Shown here piece by piece: positions 18,518 through 40,475 of a DNA stretch of 64,000 bases. How positions within the stretch are numbered: the stretch's first letter is position 1; the number at the start of each line of letters is the position of its first letter. The translations under genes and the position numbers were made by a program. The notes under the pieces were generated by a model that did not search any database, was not told the DNA's origin, and saw only the letters and a list, made by a program, of their open reading frames with translations. Source of the stretch: Pseudomonas alkylphenolica (lineage in GTDB: Bacteria; Pseudomonadota; Gammaproteobacteria; Pseudomonadales; Pseudomonadaceae); the NCBI RefSeq assembly GCF_000746525.1, contig NZ_CP009048.1:1276501-1340500 (forward strand). The letters run 5' to 3'.

Positions 18518-20230
18518 CTATTCTTTAACGGTTCCGTGACGTGCTTTCCACATCGCCAGAAGCTCTGACGGTAGCTCATCCCAAGATTCAGTTTTGGCAA
18601 AGGTGGCTTCCACCTCGTTCAGGTCGCCTTGGATCACCTGAAGGTCGACATGCTCGTCGTGCATTGCTTCAAAACGGATGTTGCCGCCTTGGTGCATCAG
18701 GTAGAAGAGCAAGTTTGGTGATTCGGCACTGAACAGAGTGGGGATGGCGTTGTTCTTAGTGACCCAATACGTCTCGTCTGTTCTGCCGTTCTTGTTGACG
18801 AAGATGTAGAGGCCAAGCCTCTTGATGAGATTGTTAGCAGCTACCCGGCCTTCAAACGAAACGAGGTCCAGCTTCTTAAAGAAGTCGTCTTTGTTCATCA
18901 CCCTGTCAGATGCCAACTGCTCACTGATGGCTGCACACTCCGATTCAAGAGCACCAATCTCGGCTTCCAGTTCGTGTAGTAGCTTCGCAGTGATGCGGGA
19001 TGGGAACTCAGCGTGTGACGCTTCTGCATCGTCCTGACGCACTTTAAGAGATGCGATGCGGCCTTCTACAATATGCAAAGACTTCTGCAATCTGCCCGAG
19101 CTGTCCTGCACCAGCGACAGGCTGTCTACCTTAGGCAGCATCTCTTTAAATACTTCCTCGGTGCGTGGGGCGCTGATGATCCCGGCGTCACACAGTCCCC
19201 TAGTAACCTTGGAGCATTTGTAATACTTACGGCCACGTTGGCCTTGGAGGTGCATGGCGGCCCCGCATTTGTAGCAATTGAGGATACCTGCCAGCACGTT
19301 GAAATTGGTGGTGGTCTTGGTGACGGTGTGAGTTTTGCGAGACGATCTAGCAGCGTGGGCCAGGTAGTATTCATCCTCAGTCACTACGGAAGGGAAGTAG
19401 CCCTTGATCGGCTCTCCGTCGGGAGTTCTCTTGCCGTCTATGAAGATGTGAGGCTGGTACTCCCCGATGGTCGTCCGGCTGTCGAGGATATGTCGCACGG
19501 TCGAGAAGCCCCACAGGCCGGAGAAATTCTTTCTTCCTGCACTGAAAGCGGGTATGCCCTCCTGATTCAATGTGGCTGCAATGATGCGGGAGCCGTGGCC
19601 CTTTGTGGATAGGTCGAAGATGCGGCGAACAACGGCAGCCTTGTCAGGGTTGAGCACATAGCTATCTGGTGTCACATCGAGCCACAGCGGACGGAGTTTG
19701 CCCAAGGGCTTGCCAGTGGTGCGAGCCTCTTTCTGTTTCGCACGCCATGCAGAGGATACCCGGCCACCCTTGGTTGCCGATTCCTCATGTGCACGTGACA
19801 TTGAGATGATCGAGATGATCAGATCGAGTTCGTTGTATTCCTTGGTATACAGACGTTTGTCCACGCTTGTGTAGACGTTGATGCCCTTGGCCAGCAGGTC
19901 GAGGAATCTTGGAAGGGCGTCACGCACTCGTTCACGTGAAAGACGATCCAGCGATTCCACTACTAGATAGCTGCCGGGTGGGATTGTCCCGTCTTCCACA
20001 TAGCTCAGGAATCGGGCTAGCTCGCCAGTGTCGTCAAGGTGCTTGCCTTTGAAGGCCGAACGCCCTGCATCAAAGAATAGGTATTCTCTCGGGTCCGCCA
20101 GCTCTAAGCCGTTCTCATCGCAAAAGGCTTTGGCTGCCTTTACCTGTCTGGTGTAGCTGTCGCCTGCTGACTGCTTTGCACTACTGAATCTGATGTAGCT
20201 GAAAACCTTGCTCACGAGACAAACGCTCAA
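18518..20230 (-). CDS. Large serine recombinase, integrase of element A
   Basis: The 570-residue protein has a resolvase catalytic domain with the nucleophile S16 in YIRFSSAKQ and the ESLDRLSRE motif near 92-100. A Recombinase domain follows (about 165-290), then a zinc ribbon (C319, C322, C339, C347) and a coiled coil (about 375-445), the standard architecture of unidirectional phage-type integrases. The gene ends the element next to ychJ: its start is only 4 bp from the ychJ stop. It is the obvious candidate for the enzyme that inserted element A into the ychJ 3' end. Confidence 0.95.
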   Translation of the reverse strand: MSVCLVSKVFSYIRFSSAKQSAGDSYTRQVKAAKAFCDENGLELADPREYLFFDAGRSAFKGKHLDDTGELARFLSYVEDGTIPPGSYLVVESLDRLSRERVRDALPRFLDLLAKGINVYTSVDKRLYTKEYNELDLIISIISMSRAHEESATKGGRVSSAWRAKQKEARTTGKPLGKLRPLWLDVTPDSYVLNPDKAAVVRRIFDLSTKGHGSRIIAATLNQEGIPAFSAGRKNFSGLWGFSTVRHILDSRTTIGEYQPHIFIDGKRTPDGEPIKGYFPSVVTEDEYYLAHAARSSRKTHTVTKTTTNFNVLAGILNCYKCGAAMHLQGQRGRKYYKCSKVTRGLCDAGIISAPRTEEVFKEMLPKVDSLSLVQDSSGRLQKSLHIVEGRIASLKVRQDDAEASHAEFPSRITAKLLHELEAEIGALESECAAISEQLASDRVMNKDDFFKKLDLVSFEGRVAANNLIKRLGLYIFVNKNGRTDETYWVTKNNAIPTLFSAESPNLLFYLMHQGGNIRFEAMHDEHVDLQVIQGDLNEVEATFAKTESWDELPSELLAMWKARHGTVKE

Positions 20231-20234
20231 ATTG

Positions 20235-20708
20235 CTATGGTAGGTAATTGTGGCAACACTTCTTGAATTTCTGCCCGCTGGCGCATGGGCAGGCGTCGTT
20301 GCGTCCGGCTTTCAGGCCGACCGTCGGGTCGATGAAATACCAGTGCCCGTCATTCTGCACAAAGGCCGAACGCTCGCGATGGCTATGTTCGCCGTCATTA
20401 TCGTGCCAGCGGGCAGTGAAGGTGACGAAGGCATGTTCAGGCTTGCCGCCAAATACCTCGGCGCTTTCCACTTCAAGGCCCAACCAGGTGCTTTGCGCGC
20501 TCCAGGCGGCAATCGCGGCGCGGTCAAGGCCGGCCTGCTGCACAGGCAGGGTGGTGTTCACCAGGTAATCGATCAGCCCCAGCACATAGGCGCTGTAGCG
20601 CGAACGCATCAGCGTCTGTGCATCGGGGGCCGGATGCCCGGCGTGATAGTGTCCGCAACAGGCGTCGAGCAGATTACCGCTGCCGCAGGGACAAACCGAG
20701 ACACTCAT
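20235..20708 (-). CDS. ychJ: YchJ family protein (SEC-C, UPF0225)
   Basis: The 157-residue product has two zinc SEC-C motifs, N-terminal [13 protein letters not shown] and C-terminal [13 protein letters not shown], around an NTF2-like middle domain. The start chosen ([12 protein letters not shown]) is 4 nt after the old stop of the upstream gene remnant. The last dozen codons appear to come from element A, which replaced the original end now found at 9203-9240; the zinc cysteines are preserved. Element B borders the gene on the other side. The cellular role of YchJ is not known. Confidence 0.9.
20253..20266. other. Attachment site of element A, integrase-proximal end
   Basis: This sequence lies within the ychJ reading frame (codons for KKCC) and matches 9223-9236. 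Crossover within the shared cacttcttga would exchange the gene's last codons without breaking the frame. Confidence 0.7.
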
Positions 20709-20712
20709 TGTT

Positions 20713-20757
20713 TCACCACCAGTACTTGCCAAAATTTTGCGGATTGGCCCAGAACTG
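20713..20757 (-). pseudogene. Displaced original 3' end of the methyltransferase-like gene
   Basis: Read on the minus strand, this encodes [13 protein letters not shown] and a TGA that lies 4 nt before the ychJ start. It matches the C-terminus FWANPEMFGKYWW of the intact gene at 26963-27457. It is best explained as the chromosomal end left behind when element B integrated. Confidence 0.8.
20715..20756. other. Attachment site of element B, left
   Basis: The 42-bp sequence matches 26965-27006 at 37 positions, in the same orientation. Identical blocks at the ends are accaccagtactt and ttggcccagaact. Confidence 0.8.
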
Positions 20758-21029: not shown

Positions 21030-21605
21030 ATGAGTTACAGCAGTCTCGCGCAATTCTCAGAAGACATTTTTTCAAGTGATCCCAAAGAGCTAATAACTCG
21101 CTGGATCAATACTGAACAACCTCACGCTTTCGCATCCAATGAGGCATATAATGGATTTCGAGAAAAAATAGAGAGGGACTGGCCGCAGAGTGAAATGATT
21201 GCGGTTGCCGGTAGCGGAAACTGGCGATACAGCCTTAATCCAAAAAAGAATTTTGGTGAGTTTCATAAAGGTAGCGATATTGATGTTGTAGTGATAAGTC
21301 GAGAGTATTTCGAGCGTACCTGGCAAGAATTACGCACCATTCATAAGAAGCTCTGGATTCGGTGGACTTCTGATGAGCGTGCTGCTGTGATGCGCACGGG
21401 GCAGAATGTCTACTGTGGGTTTGCCTCTCCGAAATACATTCCCGAGCCCAGAAACTCTTATAGATTTGATTTTCTTAAGAAGTGCAATTCCTACTCCACT
21501 GGAGCTGTTGAGCACAGGGAAGTAAATCTAATGTTTTTCAAGTCTACTGAAGATGCAGTCGACTACTACTTGCGTGGCGTTCGTCTCGCGAAAGGAAAGC
21601 TCTAA
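21030..21605 (+). CDS. Nucleotidyltransferase-fold protein, candidate defence partner
   Basis: The 191-residue product has a polymerase-beta-like nucleotidyltransferase pattern: GSGNW at 61-65 and GSDIDVVV at 81-88, whose aspartates D83 and D85 would bind metal. The segment between the GS motif and the DxD is longer than in classical minimal nucleotidyltransferases. Its stop codon overlaps the start of the DUF262 gene (TAATG), so the two are translationally coupled and probably act together. The pair is AT-richer than the chromosome. Possible roles are nucleotide signalling or modification of a tRNA or protein; none can be chosen from sequence. Confidence 0.7.
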   Translation: MSYSSLAQFSEDIFSSDPKELITRWINTEQPHAFASNEAYNGFREKIERDWPQSEMIAVAGSGNWRYSLNPKKNFGEFHKGSDIDVVVISREYFERTWQELRTIHKKLWIRWTSDERAAVMRTGQNVYCGFASPKYIPEPRNSYRFDFLKKCNSYSTGAVEHREVNLMFFKSTEDAVDYYLRGVRLAKGKL

Positions 21606-22642
21606 TGGAATATGAAGTTAGCTTGCAAACTATTGCGTGGATAAACTCGCAGAGGAACGAAGAGAAGCTTGAGATTAGTGCTGCCTTCCAGCGGCGTGCT
21701 GTATGGCTTGAGCGTGAGCGGGCTGAGCTTATTGCGACTATTCTCGACGGCCTACCGTTTCCAGAGATCTATATTCATGTCGTCACTGATGCAGACAGTG
21801 GGAAACAAACCCATATTGTTGTAGATGGACAGCAGCGAACTACTTCGATTTTGATGTTCATTGATAATGAGTTTTCCCTTCCGTCAGGACGTACAGGGTC
21901 AGCAGCCTACTTTCGCGATCTTAGTGCCGAAACGAAAGAGAGGTTTTGGGACTATAAGGTCGTAGTTCGTAGCCTCAGGAAGACAAATGATGCTGAGATT
22001 CGTGACATTTTTGCACGTCTCAATACCAATAATATAACGCTAAATGACCAAGAGCTTCGGAATGCGAAGTATGTTGGTAAGTTTAAGCAGGCCGCTGAAC
22101 GCTTGGCAGATAACCCTCTCTTCGAAGACATGGGGCTTTTCACTGCTCGGGATATGCGAAGGATGCTTGACGTAGAGTTTGTGTCTGAGCTCCTGCTTCG
22201 GCTTACTATTGGTATTGTAAATAAGAAGGATTTGCTGGAAGAAACCTATGCCGCTTATGAGGAGGAGTTTCCAGGGGAGGCGCAGTATGAAACGGAGTTT
22301 ACAACGGCAATGTCTTTGATTTGGAGTGTATATGACGACTCCATAAAGGCGTCTTACAAATCAAGGGGTAACTTCTCGAGTATATTTGGTTGCTTTGTTG
22401 AGTATTACAGAGTTACTGGTCGAAGAGCATTTCTTCAGCCGCAGCTCGTTAAGGAGGTATTCAGCAGTTTCTTGAACGCGGTACGCAATAGAGAGTTTTC
22501 GGATGAAGCAGCGAACATTGAGATTTATCACGATGCTGTGTCTCGTGCGTCCTCTGACCGGTCACGTCGTGCACGTCGAGAGAACATTCTGAGCGAGCTC
22601 CTCGTTCAGGCAGGGGAGCTCAAACAGCCATTCAACCTCTGA
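21605..22642 (+). CDS. DUF262 (GmrS/ParB-like) protein, candidate defence effector
   Basis: The 345-residue product has the DUF262 hallmarks: FQRRAVW at 28-34 and VVDGQQRTTS at 72-81, where the DGQQR motif binds nucleotide in related GmrSD, BrxU and SspE proteins. It lacks a recognisable C-terminal HNH nuclease (DUF1524), so it is not a complete GmrSD-type enzyme. The helical second half (about 150-345) is of unknown function. It overlaps the nucleotidyltransferase gene by one base. Together they look like a two-gene anti-phage module carried by element B. Confidence 0.75.
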   Translation: MEYEVSLQTIAWINSQRNEEKLEISAAFQRRAVWLERERAELIATILDGLPFPEIYIHVVTDADSGKQTHIVVDGQQRTTSILMFIDNEFSLPSGRTGSAAYFRDLSAETKERFWDYKVVVRSLRKTNDAEIRDIFARLNTNNITLNDQELRNAKYVGKFKQAAERLADNPLFEDMGLFTARDMRRMLDVEFVSELLLRLTIGIVNKKDLLEETYAAYEEEFPGEAQYETEFTTAMSLIWSVYDDSIKASYKSRGNFSSIFGCFVEYYRVTGRRAFLQPQLVKEVFSSFLNAVRNREFSDEAANIEIYHDAVSRASSDRSRRARRENILSELLVQAGELKQPFNL

Positions 22643-22892
22643 TCAACATTCGGCTTGTGCTTTGTTTAGGCGAGCCATCATGTTGATGGCAGGCGGGCCA
22701 GCAGGTCATGCAAGGGGCATAGGCACCTTGACCACATCAGCAATGATGTCCAAAAGGTATGCTTGGCACTACGGATGACGGTAGCTATCCCAGGACAGCA
22801 ATGGTGGTCCTTATTGCCCGCCCGTGAGGTTCCCTATGGCGCCTGCGCGAGGGCCTACGGGGTAACCTGCGCGGGAATGATTGATTAGATGA

Positions 22893-22991
22893 TCATTCAG
22901 AAATTTTCTGTATTTTCTCAACGGGGCTTATGCCACAGCCAGCAGGCCAGATGGACAGCCACACAGACCACGTAGGCAGCCTGTAGTCCAT
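22893..22991 (-). CDS. Possible 32-residue peptide
   Basis: A short frame (MDYRLPTWSVWLSIWPAGCG...) starts 23 bp after the KilA-N gene stop, with AAGGAG placed 6 nt before its ATG. The Trp-rich N-terminus could sit on a membrane. Only the ribosome binding site and operon position support it. Confidence 0.35.
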   Translation of the reverse strand: MDYRLPTWSVWLSIWPAGCGISPVEKIQKISE

Positions 22992-23014: not shown

Positions 23015-23764
23015 TCAGTAGTCCGGGGATGACGACTTGAGGTTCTCCTTGAGTCGCGCCTTGGCATCCCGCTGGGCTTTGTCCTTACGGGCTTTCACTT
23101 CGACCACTCGAAGGTTCACCGCTTCGGCGTTCTTACGGAGCCAATCCAGACCACGAGGCTTTACCCGCCATCCTTCACGGTTACCGAAGTCCGATGAGAC
23201 CTTCACAAAGGCGCCCACCACGAAGCCCTGAGGTTTTGGTCGAGGCGAACCCTCACGGGTCCCGAAGTCGTCCACGGGATACACAAAGTTGCCCATGGTG
23301 ACCAGAGCGTCCTGAGCGAGTCGAGGTTGTTGAATACCAGCCACACGGCAAGCCTCGGTCCATGTAAGACCAGCACCTCGGGCTTTCATGTCGAGGGTCG
23401 AAGCCTTGGGCATGTTGGCGTCTAAGAGGGCATCCTTACGGCGAAGCTCACGGACTGCACTGTTACGCATGGCGACGAAGGCGTCCACGACCATCACATA
23501 GAAGTCCAGAGAGCAAGCCATGGCATAGGCGATGGTCGCCCTCTCAGTTGCGTAAGAGCCACCACTATCACCGTGAACGGTATGCAGATTTGCACATCGG
23601 TCGAAGTAGTCCCGATCACGACCACGCCATTGAGCAGGTGGTTTTGTCAGGTCGGGTAAAGCCTTGTTGATTTCCGTGAGACTCCACAGGCCCTCAGCGT
23701 TTGGCTTGAAGGTGTGCCCTTCGATAACGATAGGCAGCAGGTCGGTTTGGTTGTTGGTCAGCAT
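23015..23764 (-). CDS. KilA-N domain phage protein
   Basis: The 249-residue product has a KilA-N DNA-binding domain at about residues 10-100 (GLWSLTEINKALPDLTKPPAQW ... is split here; key parts are SLTEINKAL, the AQWRGRD segment and GGSYATERATIAYAMAC). Such proteins in phages act as antirepressors or early regulators. The C-terminal half contains a duplicated motif (VDDFGTREG and SSDFGNREG) and a Lys-rich tail. AAAGGA precedes the ATG. It lies downstream of two phage-type promoters, in the same direction, so it may be expressed when a T7-like phage polymerase is present. Confidence 0.75.
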   Translation of the reverse strand: MLTNNQTDLLPIVIEGHTFKPNAEGLWSLTEINKALPDLTKPPAQWRGRDRDYFDRCANLHTVHGDSGGSYATERATIAYAMACSLDFYVMVVDAFVAMRNSAVRELRRKDALLDANMPKASTLDMKARGAGLTWTEACRVAGIQQPRLAQDALVTMGNFVYPVDDFGTREGSPRPKPQGFVVGAFVKVSSDFGNREGWRVKPRGLDWLRKNAEAVNLRVVEVKARKDKAQRDAKARLKENLKSSSPDY

Positions 23765-23997: not shown

Positions 23998-24078
23998 TCA
24001 GCTCAGGGTAATGCGGGTGATCATCGGGAAGGCCACAGCCTCGGTCTGGAGACCATCTAACTTGAAGTAGTAGCGCAT
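23998..24078 (-). CDS. Possible 26-residue phage-like peptide
   Basis: The frame MRYYFKLDGLQTEAVAFPMI... is preceded by a near-perfect ribosome binding site (TAAGGAGG, 5 nt before the ATG). Such very short genes with strong sites are typical of T7-like phage genomes. No function is known. Confidence 0.4.
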   Translation of the reverse strand: MRYYFKLDGLQTEAVAFPMITRITLS

Positions 24079-24215
24079 AGGGCCTCCTTAGAGATGGACT
24101 GAGAGAATAGGTATTATCATGGTCGCCAGACCAATCCATAACTTAGAGGTGTGCTTAAGAAAAACTTAAATATTAAGGATAATGATTTAATTAAAGATAA
24201 TAGTTATAGAGTTAC

Positions 24216-24347
24216 TCATTGAGCAATCTCTAAGATCTTTAAGGTAAAGGCCCCCGTGCAACTTGAGCAATACACGGTGGCCCCAATTCCGTGCAAGGTC
24301 TCTCTGCGGTGTCTACATGGACATCGAGTAACGAGTGACAATATCAA
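24216..24347 (-). CDS. Possible 43-residue zinc-ribbon peptide
   Basis: A TTG start at 24345-24347 follows AGGAGGGAG at good spacing and gives a peptide with CPC near the N-terminus and YCSSC about 20 residues later, a plausible four-cysteine zinc site. A longer frame from an ATG at 24515 exists, but that ATG lies inside a phage-type promoter and has no ribosome binding site. The TTG start makes this call tentative. Confidence 0.4.
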   Translation of the reverse strand: MILSLVTRCPCRHRRETLHGIGATVYCSSCTGAFTLKILEIAQ

Positions 24348-24506
24348 GCTGCGCTCCCTCCTACTGGAGCCAGACGCTGAAGGTCTGCTTACCGGGGAAC
24401 GGTTGAGCGCTTGGCGTGCCTCCCCGTGATGGGTGGTCGCACTGGTCGTCTCGGTCGTCTCGGTCGCCCGTGTAGGTGGGCGGTAGGGGGCCTTAGAGAT
24501 TGCCTC

Positions 24507-24529
24507 TGTAGCCATAGTGAGGGTTTCTG
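24507..24529 (-). promoter_or_regulatory. T7-like phage promoter, close to the phage gh-1 consensus
   Basis: On the minus strand the sequence reads cagaaaccctcactatggc then taca. It agrees at about 20 of 23 positions with the promoter consensus I recall for P. putida phage gh-1 (core aaccctcactrtggc). Phage-type single-subunit polymerase promoters are highly specific, so a chance match of this length is unlikely. Confidence 0.7.
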
Positions 24530-24569
24530 ACCCCGCAGAGATAGCACCTCAACCAAAGCCAAGGTTGTC

Positions 24570-24592
24570 TCTCTCAATAGTGAGGGTTAAAT
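24570..24592 (-). promoter_or_regulatory. T7-like phage promoter, close to the phage T3 consensus
   Basis: On the minus strand the sequence reads atttaaccctcactattgag then aga. It shares the continuous core ttaaccctcacta and the gaga initiation region with the T3 promoter, about 19 of 23 positions. It points the same way as the promoter 63 bp downstream. Confidence 0.65.
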
Positions 24593-24795: not shown

Positions 24796-24936
24796 TTACT
24801 CGTATTCAGACAAACAGTTAGCACACAGATCATGGCCTCCGACATCGGCAACTACAGGCCCGTTACCGCACTGGTCGCACTCATTGCCAAGGTCGTCGTC
24901 GTTGTCTTTCTCATCGTCAAGATCAAACTCGTTCAT
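24796..24936 (-). CDS. 46-residue zinc-ribbon protein
   Basis: The product has an acidic N-terminus (MNEFDLDDEKDNDDDLGN) followed by a two-pair cysteine motif, CDQCG and CANCL, spaced 18 residues apart, a clear small zinc ribbon. GAGGAG lies 7 nt before the ATG. It is not long enough to appear in routine gene calls. Acidic small zinc proteins in phages can bind host polymerase or nucleases; this is inference. Confidence 0.6.
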   Translation of the reverse strand: MNEFDLDDEKDNDDDLGNECDQCGNGPVVADVGGHDLCANCLSEYE

Positions 24937-25019: not shown

Positions 25020-25250
25020 CTACCTTCTGGCTTTGTTCTCTTTATTGGAAGCGTAGGCACCTATACCTCCTGAAACGACAATCAGGACTGCGTTTGCCCA
25101 AAGAGGAATATCTGCAAACTGGTCACCAGAGTTAATCAACGGACCATTGTGGAAAAAGCCCCCTACAAAAATCCCAATTAATAGGTAGGCCATTCCACTG
25201 AACACGACCCATTGGAAAAAATTAGCCCGTATTCCCTGTATGAATCTCAT
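25020..25250 (-). CDS. Small two-pass membrane protein of unknown function
   Basis: The 76-residue product has two hydrophobic segments (about residues 12-33 and 50-66) joined by a short loop with FFHNGPLINSGDQF, and a basic C-terminus (SNKENKARR). It lies on the same strand as the integrase and the tiny genes of element B. No family was recognised. Confidence 0.6.
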   Translation of the reverse strand: MRFIQGIRANFFQWVVFSGMAYLLIGIFVGGFFHNGPLINSGDQFADIPLWANAVLIVVSGGIGAYASNKENKARR

Positions 25251-25460: not shown

Positions 25461-26933
25461 TTAACCCTTGAACGCCTTCACGAGCGCCTCATGGACCACC
25501 TTAACGGGCAACCGCTGGGTTCTCGCATAGAGGTCATTGGTGATGTTCCCTGCGCTATGCCCAGTGACAGCCTGCATGATGGCGTTTGGAATCACAGCGG
25601 CCTTCATGAGCCCCGAAATGGAGTGTCTCAGTGAGTGGAATGACAAGTCACCACCAGCCTTCAGCCCCAGAGGTTCCCTGAGTGCATCATTGAGCGGCCT
25701 ATTGAAGTAGTGTTCCTTCTGCTTGAACAGCCGACCTCCATTTGCATCGACCCACTCAAGGAAGGCCTCAAGGGAGAACCCATAGGCCCCATCGACCAGC
25801 GGAACGAGCCTCACAGAGAAGTCGTTCTTCAGGGTCTTGCCGCCGTTCTCATCCTTGTTGATGTCGATGACGGTGATGCCATCCACCTGCCTCACGTCCT
25901 CCTGGGTGAGCTGGTAAAGCTCCCCAATGCGAAGCCCTGTGAGGACTCCCAACGATATTGCCCAGCGCTTCCAATCGTCCACAGGTAGGCCATTGGCATG
26001 GGCCATGACAGTTGCAATCTGGTCCCGCGAGAACGGCTTACGGGTGCTCTCAGCGCCTCGTTCAATCTTCAGGCGATTGGCAAGCGAATACGGGATATAG
26101 GCATTGTCCTTGGCCCAATCCATCACCGTCATGAGTTGGCCCAGCAGCTTGTTGCTCGTCAGCGGCTTTCGGCCTTCAATCACCTTCGCCTTGAGGGTTG
26201 TCATGTCCTCTCTTGTATGGGTCCTGATGTCCAAGTCCCCGAGGAGGGCCGAGAGGGTCCGGCAGTTGGACGTCACGGAATTGAAAGTGGAAGCGGTTAC
26301 GTTGCCTTTGCGTTCAGCCAAAAAGAGCCCTGAGAGGGCCTCGAAGGTCATGGGCTCTTGAGCAACCGCAGGCGGTAATACAGATAGGGACGGGAAAGGG
26401 GCTACAGGCGTGCCACAAGATAGCTCCCCAATGATGTCCGTGAGTCCCTGAGGGCGACCATCCAGACGATCCTGAGCTGCCTTGAGCACTCGTTGACCCG
26501 TACCTATGGCCCGTTGCTGGCTCACATTGAACTGACCAAGCGAGGCAGCCTCAGCGAGATGGTTGCTCATCTGGTCGTAGAGTTCCATGTAGAGGCCCCG
26601 TGAGTCCTCGCTATGGCCCTGTAGGGCGTCCTCAGCGATCTCCTTGAGGCGCTCCTTGAGGTCCTCCCACGAAGCCTCAGGCTGGTCGAGGTGAAAGACA
26701 GCCAGTGTCTTGAGGATGTCCTTGGAGAACTGCATAGCGGTTGGCCTATCGGTGGAACGGAGAGAGATGGTGAGACTACGGGCAGAGCAGCCCCGAGGGC
26801 GAACCCTGAGGTAGTAGATGCCTGAGCGTCTGTAGTGCCAGACAGAGAGCGCCTGAAAGGGTCGCTGGTGACAAGGCTGGTGACAGGGTGGTGACACTTG
26901 GCCTTGCTCTGGCATAGCTTGGATAGCGTTCAT
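25461..26933 (-). CDS. Tyrosine recombinase, integrase of element B
   Basis: The 490-residue phage-type integrase shows the full catalytic set: R335 (TGLRIGEL), K369, H433 and R436 (FHSLRH), H459 (TGHS) and the nucleophile Y469 (DLYAR). A SAM-like core-binding domain covers about 195-290; the N-terminal 190 residues form an arm-binding and linker region. Three TGGTGACA repeats lie within its first 25 codons. It begins 32 bp from the right attachment site, as usual for an element integrase. The frame is intact. Confidence 0.95.
   Translation of the reverse strand: MNAIQAMPEQGQVSPPCHQPCHQRPFQALSVWHYRRSGIYYLRVRPRGCSARSLTISLRSTDRPTAMQFSKDILKTLAVFHLDQPEASWEDLKERLKEIAEDALQGHSEDSRGLYMELYDQMSNHLAEAASLGQFNVSQQRAIGTGQRVLKAAQDRLDGRPQGLTDIIGELSCGTPVAPFPSLSVLPPAVAQEPMTFEALSGLFLAERKGNVTASTFNSVTSNCRTLSALLGDLDIRTHTREDMTTLKAKVIEGRKPLTSNKLLGQLMTVMDWAKDNAYIPYSLANRLKIERGAESTRKPFSRDQIATVMAHANGLPVDDWKRWAISLGVLTGLRIGELYQLTQEDVRQVDGITVIDINKDENGGKTLKNDFSVRLVPLVDGAYGFSLEAFLEWVDANGGRLFKQKEHYFNRPLNDALREPLGLKAGGDLSFHSLRHSISGLMKAAVIPNAIMQAVTGHSAGNITNDLYARTQRLPVKVVHEALVKAFKG
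26866..26897. repeat. Arm-type integrase repeats, right end of element B
   Basis: Three direct copies of tggtgaca (26866, 26878, 26889) spaced 12 and 11 bp apart lie inside the 5' end of the integrase gene and match the two copies at 20827-20847. Binding there could also repress the integrase gene. Confidence 0.65.
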
Positions 26934-26962
26934 GGTTACGTAAGCCCTTGATATTCATGGGT

Positions 26963-27457
26963 TTACCACCAGTACTTCCCAAACATTTCCGGGTTGGCCC
27001 AGAACTTGGCATTGAGCCAGTCCGGGACCTGCTTGTATTCACGTAGATCATAGGTGAACAGGCTCAGGACCTGATCATCGCGCTGAAATTTTTCGTTGGC
27101 TTGCAGGGCCAGGGCGAAGAAATCGGTGTCTTGCCAGCCGCAGGCGCTCAGGTCGGCCAGCACTGCCACGCGGCTGGCATTGAGGTTGCGGATGCCGCCG
27201 AGCAACTGCAGACCATCGCGCTTGGGCAGGTGCTCCAGGCAATCGACCAGCAAGGCTAGATCAAAGCGCTGAGCGGCCAAGTCCGTAGGTAAAGGTCCCG
27301 GCTTGGTCTGGGCAATCTCCACGTGCGGGTGTGCCTGGACAAAGACGTCCAAAGCCGGAAAACGCGTGCCGACCAGTAATAAACGTTGCGGTAGATGGTG
27401 TTCAAGCAGCGCCGCCAGGGCTTGCTGCGGGGTTCGTTGGGAAAATCCGTCAATCAT
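26963..27457 (-). CDS. Methyltransferase-like protein (DUF6231-type), target gene of element B
   Basis: The 164-residue product has a degenerate Rossmann pattern (RLLLVGTRFPALDVFVQ ... LALLVDCLEHLPKRDG ... AVLADLSA) resembling class I methyltransferases but lacking a clear glycine-rich SAM loop. I associate it with DUF6231, with moderate certainty. Its last 14 codons are supplied by element B, so the protein differs from the ancestral one only slightly (NPEMFGKYWW against [10 protein letters not shown]). It was originally followed by ychJ after 4 nt. Confidence 0.7.
   Translation of the reverse strand: MIDGFSQRTPQQALAALLEHHLPQRLLLVGTRFPALDVFVQAHPHVEIAQTKPGPLPTDLAAQRFDLALLVDCLEHLPKRDGLQLLGGIRNLNASRVAVLADLSACGWQDTDFFALALQANEKFQRDDQVLSLFTYDLREYKQVPDWLNAKFWANPEMFGKYWW
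26965..27006. other. Attachment site of element B, right
   Basis: This is the integrase-proximal copy of the 42-bp repeat (see 20715-20756). It encodes the C-terminus of the methyltransferase-like protein. Confidence 0.8.
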
Positions 27458-36746: not shown

Positions 36747-37718
36747 ATGTCTTCACATAAAACCTTAGCTATCGCCCTGTGCCTGGCCATGACCGGCTGT
36801 GCTCAGCACTCCCCGAAAGGTGCGGCCGACAGTGGCATCGACTGGTGGCCCTTCGGCTCGGCCAAGGTTGCCAACCAGGAAGTGAAGGAAGTGGTTGTCG
36901 AGAAAGTCGCCAAGGCCGATGCCAAGTCCGAGAGCAGCAGCCGCTGGTGGTGGCCGTTCGGTGACAGCGACAAGGCCAAGGTTGCGGCCGTGCCGAAGAT
37001 TGACCACAAGGCCACCCAGGCCTGGCTGGACAGCTACGAACCGCGCCTGCGTGAAGCAATCAAGGACAGCAAGTTTGAACTTGAGCGCCGTGAAGACGTG
37101 CTGGTCGTCACCGTACCAGTAGACAGCTCCTACAACCCGGATCGTCCGGCCATGCTTCTGCCGGTCACCCTCGGCCCCATCACCCGTGTAGCCAAAGCGA
37201 TCGAAACCGATAAGCAGACCGCCGTACTGGTGCTCGGCCATGCTGACACCAGCGGTGCCACCGCCGGCAATCAGAAACTCAGCCAGGAGCGCGCCCAGTC
37301 GGTAGCAGCTATCTTCCGCCTCAGTGGTCTGGAGCGTGATCGCCTGATGTTGCGCGGCATGGGTTCGGAAATGCCACGTGCGGCCAACGACAGTCTGCAG
37401 GGCCGTGCTCTGAACCGTCGGGTAGAACTGGTGCTGACCCCGCAAAACACCATGGTCGCGTTGCTGGCCAAGTACAAGCAGCCGACGCCGAGCCCGGCCG
37501 AGCTGGTCGCGGTGCAGGATGCCAAGGCCCCGGTCAAGGCCGCGGTGAAGCCTGCCGCCAAGGCTCCGGTGAAGAAAGCCAGCACCAGCAAAAAAGCCGC
37601 CCCGGCCAAAGCCACGACCGCCAAGAAGAAAGCCCCGGCAGCCAAACCCGCAGCTAAGAAGCCTGCGCCTGCTGCCAAGAAAGTGGCCGCCAACACCAGC
37701 CCTGCGAAGACCAACTGA
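36747..37718 (+). CDS. OmpA-family lipoprotein with Lys/Ala/Pro-rich C-terminal tail
   Basis: The 323-residue product has a lipoprotein signal (CLAMTGC), a Trp-containing linker with a repeated WWPFG motif (residues about 33 and 68), an OmpA-like domain (about 125-240, LGHADTSGATAGNQKLSQER and ALNRRVEL) and a strongly basic tail of AKKAPAK-type repeats (about 265-323). The tail resembles histone H1-like or nucleoid-type sequences and could bind DNA, LPS or polyanionic cell-wall polymers. It is the third OmpA-domain lipoprotein in the window. The start is 18 bp short of pdxH's neighbour only at its 3' side. Confidence 0.8.
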   Translation: MSSHKTLAIALCLAMTGCAQHSPKGAADSGIDWWPFGSAKVANQEVKEVVVEKVAKADAKSESSSRWWWPFGDSDKAKVAAVPKIDHKATQAWLDSYEPRLREAIKDSKFELERREDVLVVTVPVDSSYNPDRPAMLLPVTLGPITRVAKAIETDKQTAVLVLGHADTSGATAGNQKLSQERAQSVAAIFRLSGLERDRLMLRGMGSEMPRAANDSLQGRALNRRVELVLTPQNTMVALLAKYKQPTPSPAELVAVQDAKAPVKAAVKPAAKAPVKKASTSKKAAPAKATTAKKKAPAAKPAAKKPAPAAKKVAANTSPAKTN

Positions 37719-39296: not shown

Positions 39297-40475
39297 TCAG
39301 GCGGCGGCTGCCTTGCGGCTCGCCAGTGCGGTGACGCCGTAGCCGATCAGGGCGGCGAGGATAGACCCGGTAAGAATGCCCATGCGGTCCATGCCGGCGT
39401 ACTCGCTGCTGCCCGGAACAAAGGCCAGCGAGCCAACGAACAGGCTCATGGTAAAGCCGATGCCGCAAAGGATAGCCACGCCCAGCACCTGGCCCCAATT
39501 GGCCCCTCCAGGCAAGGCGGCCAAGCCCAGCTTGACCGCGATCCAGGTAAGACCGAACACCCCTACGGTCTTGCCCAGCAACAGGCCGATGGCAATACCC
39601 ATTGGTACGTAGTGGGTGAAGCTTTCCAGGGTTACCCCGGCCAGCGATACCCCGGCGTTGGCGAACGCGAACAGCGGCAGGATGCCGTAAGCCACCCAGG
39701 GGTGCAGGGCATGTTCCAGCGTCAGCAGCGGCGAAGGTTCGGCGTTGCGTGTACGCAATGGAATGCACAGAGCGAGGGTGACCCCGGCGAGGGTGGCGTG
39801 GACACCGCTTTTGAGTACACAGACCCAGAGGATCAGGCCGATCACCATGTACGGGCCGAGTTTGACCACCCCGAGCCGGTTCATCGCGATCAGCGCCAGC
39901 AAGCAGGCGCCGGCCAGCATCAGCGACAGGCTCGATAGTTCACCGGAGTAGAACAGCGCAATGACAACGATTGCGCCCAGGTCATCGATAATTGCCAGGG
40001 TCATCAGGAACAACTTGAGCGACACCGGCACGCGCTTGCCCAGCAGCGCCAATACGCCCAGGGCAAAGGCGATGTCGGTGGCCATGGGAATGGCCCAACC
40101 GGCAACGGCGGCCGGGTTGTCCTTGTTCAGGAACCAGTAGATCAGCGCCGGTACCACCATGCCGCCAATGGCGGCAGCACCCGGCAGGACGATCTGCGAA
40201 GGCTTGGACAGGTGACCGTCGATTATCTCGCGCTTGACCTCAAGGCCGATCAGCAGGAAGAACAGGGCCATCAGGCCGTCGTTGATCCACAGCAGCAAGG
40301 GTTTGGCGATTTTCAGTGCGCCGATCTGGGCGACCACAGGTACATCCAGCAAGCCGTTGTACAGGTATGACAAGGGCGAGTTGTTGATGATCAGGGCCAA
40401 GGCGGCAGCAGCAATCAGCAATAGACCGCTGGCCGCTTCCAACTGAAAGAAACGTGTGAAGGTGCTTCGCAGCAA
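39297..40475 (-). CDS. nhaA: Na+/H+ antiporter NhaA
   Basis: The 392-residue inner-membrane protein exchanges sodium for protons. The two adjacent aspartates of the ion-binding site are visible in [11 protein letters not shown], and the family motif [13 protein letters not shown] lies near 74-86. About 11-12 membrane segments are present. The 220-bp upstream region is AT-rich and contains a short agggggacaccct dyad, not assigned to any known riboswitch. Confidence 0.95.

Follow-up and report, generated by a model that had tools for sequence, protein, structure and literature searches.

The DNA analyzed here (the window) is a stretch of 64,000 nucleotides from Pseudomonas alkylphenolica (contig NZ_CP009048.1, positions 1,276,501 to 1,340,500). 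It carries a 6.25-kb element whose integration target was the 3' end of a DUF6231 gene (26963..27457, minus strand; PF19742, E 4.3e-49) and which is bracketed by a 57-nt direct repeat, the copies of which are 82% identical. The left attachment repeat, attL (26950..27006), is the 3' end of the DUF6231 gene; the right one, attR (20700..20756), holds the original 3' end of that gene. The empty site was recognized in the 12 other genus genomes examined, in all of which the DUF6231 and YchJ genes are adjacent; among genomes of the order, DUF6231 was without its YchJ neighbor in one and was not found in five. On the minus strand, the element encodes a 490-aa tyrosine integrase (25461..26933; PF00589, E 1.5e-13) and a 249-aa protein weakly assigned as KilA-N/antirepressor-like (23015..23764; phrog_129, E 3.4e-5; phrog_2812, E 3.1e-5), both of which are open reading frames in this copy. 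The plus strand carries the cargo, i.e. a 191-aa nucleotidyltransferase-domain protein (21030..21605; PF01909, E 1.7e-4; PADLOC "Cyclase" at only E 0.0056) and a defence-like, 345-aa DUF262/GmrSD_N protein (21605..22642; PF03235, E 2.7e-23; PADLOC NsnA, E 7.6e-37, and PD-T4-2_A, E 1.6e-19). No portal, tail, terminase or polymerase family was detected in Pfam and PHROG scans of the element's 10 scanned proteins.

Two matches to the promoters of T7-like phage RNA polymerases are located on the minus strand of the element. P1 (24507..24529, CAGAAACCCTCACTATGGCTACA) scored 20/23 against the gh-1 consensus, with a runner-up of 17/23 in the window, and P2 (24570..24592, ATTTAACCCTCACTATTGAGAGA) scored 19/23 against the T3 consensus (runner-up 15/23); the strings used are those that we take to be the gh-1 and T3 consensuses. 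The window scan thus confirmed both scores given in the original prediction, which had been made from the sequence alone. Random recurrence of equally good matches, named there as grounds for rejection, was not found: the 11-mer common to P1 and P2 has two copies in 5,764,622 bases (both strands), at P1 and P2 only, 63 bp apart on the same strand, and a reversed control of the pattern had no copy on either strand of the same genome. A 23-base sequence of P1 (AAACCCTCACTATGGCTACAGAG) recurs without a mismatch in six viral loci encoding T7-like proteins. These loci were fetched using 15 of the 23 bases, leaving eight bases as independent agreement; among the 51 loci fetched with this 15-mer, T7-like proteins are encoded in 29 and none was seen in 22. 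P2 resembles the promoter at 40410 of PPPL-1 (Ghunavirus), which follows the large terminase gene, more than it does that of T3 (CCCTCACTATTGGGAGAGAC in PPPL-1, CCCTCACTATTGAGAGAGAC in P2). Both P1 and P2 retain AACCCTCACTA exactly.

The T7-type polymerase family PF00940 had no match in the window genome and none in six other carriers of such elements; in the controls, one match was obtained in a phage and none in 14 named genomes. As had been anticipated, the polymerase would need to be supplied by an infecting T7-like phage. Leftward of P1 and P2 lie a structured RNA, the KilA-like gene and a junction-like site, and the nucleotidyltransferase and DUF262 genes are on the opposite strand. The targets first proposed for the promoters were tiny genes and KilA-N. 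A KilA-like gene is downstream, under a label that has only weak support from PHROG (E about 3e-5) and none from Pfam at E 0.01. A 99-aa open reading frame immediately under the promoters is probably no gene; it was rejected because a frame change in locus L100 divides its matches and because the region covaries as RNA.

Related elements were collected by two routes. The KilA-like gene had matches in 26 of 398 genus genomes (its own included), at 29 places, 20 of which were read over up to 19 kb each; an integrase of the element's kind was present at 17 of these 20 loci and a promoter matching at 10/11 or better at 15. When 16 proteins of the T7-like phage 3MF5 were compared to the same loci, the integrase alone matched, bar a gp16-like protein in locus L102. 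The other route started from C6, a core protein of 333 aa, and led to 36 loci of named genomes and five of viral contigs; in a separate count, C6 was present in 30 of the 398 genus genomes. Repeat-defined ends could be assigned for 27 of these 41 loci; the remaining 14 were cut by contig ends, had no long integrase match or had no repeat that could be found. By their best repeats (a few of which are only 13-19 bp), the 27 elements measure 6366-6688 bp, and a 6-7 kb size filter removed none of them. Seven loci without C6 (L083, L088, L091, L093, L094, L099 and L102; 6.2-12.9 kb) are outside these counts.

When no more than one mismatch was allowed, 45 promoter matches were counted in the 27 elements. 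Every one of them is on the same strand as the capsid gene described below, and 26 of the 27 elements have at least one. The mean for 500 permuted motifs on the same elements was 1.5 matches (maximum 15), and there were no matches on either strand of 304 kb of flanking DNA. A consensus, TTTAAAAACCCTCACTATGGC, was derived from 47 sites, P1 and P2 included; its conservation extends past the search word, most clearly upstream (72-83% per column at the upstream TTAA, 43-74% at the downstream TGGC). In nine of the 27 elements, a promoter lies within 400 bp before C5, the gene preceding C6. A variant promoter found in a subgroup, CCCTCACAANAACAGGGA, is also present in four viral loci that have T7-like genes; a single 41.8 kb contig holds two of these loci.

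Near attR, the elements match the right ends of T7-like phages. In sensitive blastn searches, the right ends of gh-1, PPPL-1, 3MF5 and phTUNSv each matched the satellites at a single place, and that of gh-1 did so in 23 of 28 elements (E up to 0.06). A profile made from 24 satellites located the site in all 28, among them four that had been held out (L116, L128, L129 and the window element, in which it spans 22816..22969 on the minus strand, E 1.2e-24). Applied to gh-1, the profile matched 37101-37196 (E 1.1e-17), across the annotated start of the terminal repeat at 37143; it also had a single match in each of 12 viral loci that carry T7-like genes, and it matched 17 of the 20 KilA-selected loci, some of which are identical to training elements. 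The core of the junction is AGAATCTGACAGAAAAATCTGA...CACCT...CCCCCGTAGG. Phage-only profiles gave a similar picture: one of three annotated phages recovered 25 of the 28 elements (window 22931-22826, E 1.9e-5), and one of 12 phage junctions, which had been placed using the satellite profile, recovered 26 (window E 7.5e-7; both E values are for the 64 kb window). At E up to 1, neither found anything in the 304 kb of flanking DNA. Compared directly, the window junction and gh-1 are 68% identical over 104 bp (E 1e-6). The distance from junction to attR is 114-441 bp in the 27 elements and 2059 bp in the window copy, where the cargo lies between. Judging by its position in gh-1, the matched junction is probably a terminase or packaging site; it is diverged in the window copy.

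Many family members encode a capsid protein of the HK97 fold, C6, which is present in 10 of the 20 KilA-selected loci and lies on the strand read by the T7-type promoters. A search of solved-structure sequences with the capsid alignment returned nothing below E 0.4, and the 3MF5 capsid protein had no match to that of the satellites. With 3MF5 proteins as queries, no terminase or portal was recognized in the satellites, although unrelated versions would escape such a search. The uniform size of the capsid-bearing members suggests a packing limit. The five C6 loci on viral contigs are, judging by their record names, predicted proviruses rather than virions. Among the matches listed, the named C6 homologues are called hypothetical, uncharacterised or Ig-like; a subset (e.g. 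P0043 and P0044) has a C-terminal BIG2 Ig-like domain, and these, where named, are "Ig-like" or "BIG2 domain-containing" proteins.

C6 had no match in the window genome. Instead, a deletion scar (23998..24078, minus strand) fuses, at GATGGTCTC (24057-24049), the start of gene gA and the final codons of the capsid gene; by blastn, the halves of the scar correspond to L100 7248-7329 and 9193-9316. The window element is thus a capsid-deleted member of the family, with its DUF262/nucleotidyltransferase cargo between the junction and attR. Elements L083, L088, L094 and L099 also have no C6 and carry both promoter and junction.

Downstream of the promoters, about 250 nt are strongly conserved in the window (24220..24482, minus strand) and 11 other distinct sequences. 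The fold of the window RNA had a z of -3.4. In a consensus fold of 56 pairs derived from seven sequences, 23 cells were changed on both sides, compared with 8.3 in shuffles (0 of 500 reached the observed value) and 1-6 in slid controls. Of the five measures, one (further pair types) was not above the shuffles (182/500 reached it). The five sequences outside the derivation, examined together with the window row (which had been used in it), gave 15 such cells vs. 4.8 in shuffles (0/500) and 0-3 in slid controls, and their further pair types were reached by 23/500 shuffles. The shuffles leave the relatedness of the sequences in place. A T7-type promoter lies upstream at a similar distance in all 12 sequences; the worst has 7 mismatches in 21 positions, three have 2-3 mismatches in the 11-mer core, and each is matched by no more than 1.3% of base shuffles. 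No Rfam family matched the RNA at its gathering score, and of nine stretches matched in viral contigs one, in L103, is a real relative. The RNA runs into the stretch with the lowest G+C of the element (24163..24243; 0.21 over 80 nt), which follows the cores of the window promoters at distances of 323 and 386 bp; in most sequences carrying both, the AT-rich minimum falls 321-353 bp after the promoter.

In keeping with what is generally expected of satellites, the element has its own integrase and att sites, an incomplete set of virion and replication genes and, by sequence, signals that would exploit a helper. The integrase and att sites, the promoters of the T7/gh-1 class without a polymerase, the resemblance of the junction and the capsid gene of many members together make it very probable that the element is a phage satellite with T7-like helpers, namely Studiervirinae related to gh-1, PPPL-1 and 3MF5. 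A number of observations weigh against this reading or restrict it. The evidence comes from sequence, and packaged DNA was not seen. Five of the 20 KilA-selected loci have no promoter at 10/11 and three have no integrase match (some loci end at contig ends), and C6 is present in only half of them. The RNA has strong matches in only nine of the 28 elements; it therefore cannot be the sole origin, and other members do without it. Identification of the junction as a terminase site draws on the annotated gh-1 repeat and on what is generally known of packaging in T7. A strict match to particular helpers predicts that each promoter variant goes with one junction type, which is not what is observed, and no sign of helper-specific co-adaptation was obtained. 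In the window copy, gA, C5 and C6 are missing; upstream of AACCCTCACTA, P1 and P2 are poorer than TTTAAAAACCCTCACTATGGC and lack the upstream TTTAAA; and the junction was missed by sensitive blastn with phage right ends, its best identity to any of the 14 phage junctions compared (0.56) being the lowest of the 28 (L125, 0.57; other elements, 0.62-0.78). Given the deleted capsid genes and the least phage-like junction, the mobility of the window copy itself is doubtful.

The following course of events is proposed. The polymerase of an infecting T7-like phage would read the satellite, which would excise and be replicated by the replisome of the phage. The structured transcript, as it enters the AT-rich stretch, may act as a primer or origin, somewhat like the primary origin of T7. 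Phage terminase would cut satellite concatemers at the junction copy, and the DNA would be packed in a satellite-made capsid, in members that bear the gene, with portal and tail from the helper; the window copy and other members without C6 would need helper-made capsids. Through its cargo (e.g. proteins of the TIR, SIR2 and DUF262 kinds), a satellite may give its host some defence in return. Taken as a whole, the proposal is of an undescribed satellite class keyed to T7-like virulent phages through transcription, in which induction is triggered by the single-subunit RNA polymerase of the invader. A structured RNA that no other polymerase transcribes would prime replication, or else have the helper or packaging as its target, and cutting at the copied helper junction would be combined with small satellite-encoded capsids in the capsid-bearing members; we would put the chances of this combined proposal at about even.

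Four other explanations were considered. The window copy could be a dead satellite that formerly moved with T7-like phages and then lost its capsid genes; its promoters would be remnants, and any retention of the element would be owed to its cargo. The deletion scar, the least phage-like junction and promoters weaker upstream than the family consensus all speak for this, whereas the integrase and KilA-like genes are open, P1 and P2 retain AACCCTCACTA exactly and the junction is still found by a phage-only profile; moreover, L083, L088, L094 and L099 indicate that an element with no capsid gene need not be immobile. We rate this explanation at slightly less than an even chance. It is compatible with the family being satellites: the suggestion in the original prediction that the promoters are relics could hold for this copy, given its deleted capsid genes and junction, but leaves the family unexplained. 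At the other extreme, the promoters are short and the window is 64 kb, so that chance matches might be suspected; a genome-unique 11-mer in tandem on one strand, a strand bias of 45 to 0 in the family and the empty flanks reduce that probability to a negligible one.

Alternatively, the element might be a defence island in which the invading polymerase turns on anti-phage genes. Its cargo is defence-like (DUF262 in the window, and at the same att site in sister elements a SIR2-domain protein in L094:10951-13512 and a TIR-domain protein in L095:12666-13493, the latter matching PADLOC TIR-TM at E 1e-74), and its promoters would be usable only by an infecting T7-like phage. But the window promoters read the strand opposite the nucleotidyltransferase and DUF262 genes, those of the family precede C5-C6 (within 400 bp in 9/27) or the RNA, and a junction copy, a capsid gene and a uniform size are of use for transfer, which defence alone would not require. 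This explanation is accordingly unlikely, and of the two roles first suggested for the element, satellite or defence island, the family evidence upholds the former; the window promoters do not point at the defence-like cargo. An origin as a decayed T7-like prophage, left by a T7-like phage that had an integrase, entered the chromosome and then shed almost all of its genes, would account for the kinship of the integrase to that of Warsawvirus and for the T7-like promoters and right-end junction. It is very improbable: of the 16 3MF5 proteins searched around the element only the integrase matched, the 3MF5 capsid does not match that of the family, and 27 elements of 6.37-6.69 kb share one layout, which decay would not produce time and again.

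The satellite reading invites comparison with families already named, which include P4-like satellites, PICI, cfPICI, PLE, PICMI, VEIME, tycheposons and Mulch/Flayer (PMC11389934); other satellite-like elements are treated in PMC12458937. The cf-PICI make their own capsids (PMC11389934), as other members of the present family would with their capsid gene, deleted in the window copy. The elements described here differ from cf-PICI in that they have no recognized terminase, portal or neck genes, are about 6.5 kb long and are apparently activated through T7-type promoters. Terminase and head-completion genes are what we presume cf-PICI to contain. Closest in size are the PICMI of Vibrionaceae, satellites of virulent phages that are about 6 kb long and carry a defence gene as cargo (PMC10803314), and capsid-less members such as the window copy are most like them in economy. 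PICMI are sited next to fis, depend on AlpA and a primase and have no capsid-remodelling gene (PMC10803314). Unlike them, the present family occupies DUF6231 and other sites (the window element lies between DUF6231 and YchJ) and has T7-type promoters, a junction copy and, in many members, a capsid gene. AlpA was absent from the Pfam matches of the open reading frames scanned, which cover the small frames only in part. In the main text of the PICMI paper, "podovir" and "autographivir" do not occur, and "RNA polymerase" occurs once, for the primase of PICMI itself (PMC10803314). Mulch and Flayer of Streptomyces likewise encode encapsidation machinery and lack key replication genes, but their hosts are unrelated, and phage-polymerase promoters are not mentioned in the available portion of their description (PMC10690885).

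Of T7 itself, the primary origin consists of two promoters and an AT-rich region, a layout cited here from general knowledge. The satellite similarly has a promoter followed by its lowest-G+C stretch, but about 320-390 bp that form a structured RNA separate the two. Plasmids that carry a T7 packaging signal can be taken into T7 particles independently of the phage genome (PMC9981461); those plasmids were engineered and are not integrated, whereas the satellites appear to do likewise naturally. No satellite of T7-like phages that uses phage promoters was found among the papers listed in the literature searches, which comprised titles and the beginnings of abstracts and did not extend to the VEIME and tycheposon papers or to most subscription papers and preprints. 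We know of no satellite of T7-like phages, and the novelty of the class is provisional.

T7-like phages are classic virulent phages, and their RNA polymerase is a textbook tool of host takeover. If the proposal is correct, that polymerase doubles as an alarm that wakes a chromosomal parasite, and virulent phages are a transfer route for defence genes of Pseudomonas. A function would be gained by a capsid protein so far called hypothetical, uncharacterised or Ig-like, and a test bed by a structured RNA without an Rfam match.

Several further observations were made on the element and its relatives. Upstream of the promoters, a 46-aa open reading frame (24796..24936, minus strand) has two CxxC pairs, by eye a possible zinc ribbon, and one of 76 aa (25020..25250, minus strand) is possibly a membrane protein, also by eye, with no Pfam or PHROG match at E 0.01. 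No tRNAs were predicted in the window or the 20 loci, except for one doubtful case in L097. Of 50,697 phage records, four had DNA matches to the element, all of them stretches of 214-230 bp of integrase genes, 72-73% identical; they are records of phages 3MF5 and phTUNSv/m, of which the two fetched are Warsawvirus; ordinary blastn of the element or RNA region against phages gave the integrase and promoter cores only. The integrase protein is 45.8% identical to that of 3MF5 (L052:39455-40963), a satellite-type integrase located at the right end of T7-like Warsawvirus phages. L102:2087-14987, an element of ca. 12.9 kb by its att repeats, has a junction copy and promoter and may be a satellite with an ejection protein, since one of its products, of 1348 aa, is related to gp16, the internal virion protein of T7-like phages (43.6% to 3MF5). 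Pseudomonas sp. ANT_H4 holds two different satellites, L116 in a 58 kb contig and L145 as a separate contig of 6428 bp with 13 bp of the att core at both ends. Among the C6 homologues in the matches listed (n=135, counted by hand), the longest contig is 6.3-6.7 kb in 11, 5.9-6.3 kb in two and 6.7-7.1 kb in three; these element-length contigs and the att ends of L145 are no more than hints of free forms. A 5970-bp contig of Streptomyces sp. IBSBF 2953 (L142) has a partial integrase, the KilA-like gene, C5, C6 and the junction, and is probably Pseudomonas contamination of that assembly. Finally, a 570-aa serine recombinase (18518-20230; phrog_95 integrase, E 1.8e-73) is encoded just left of the YchJ gene and may mark a second mobile element beside the satellite.
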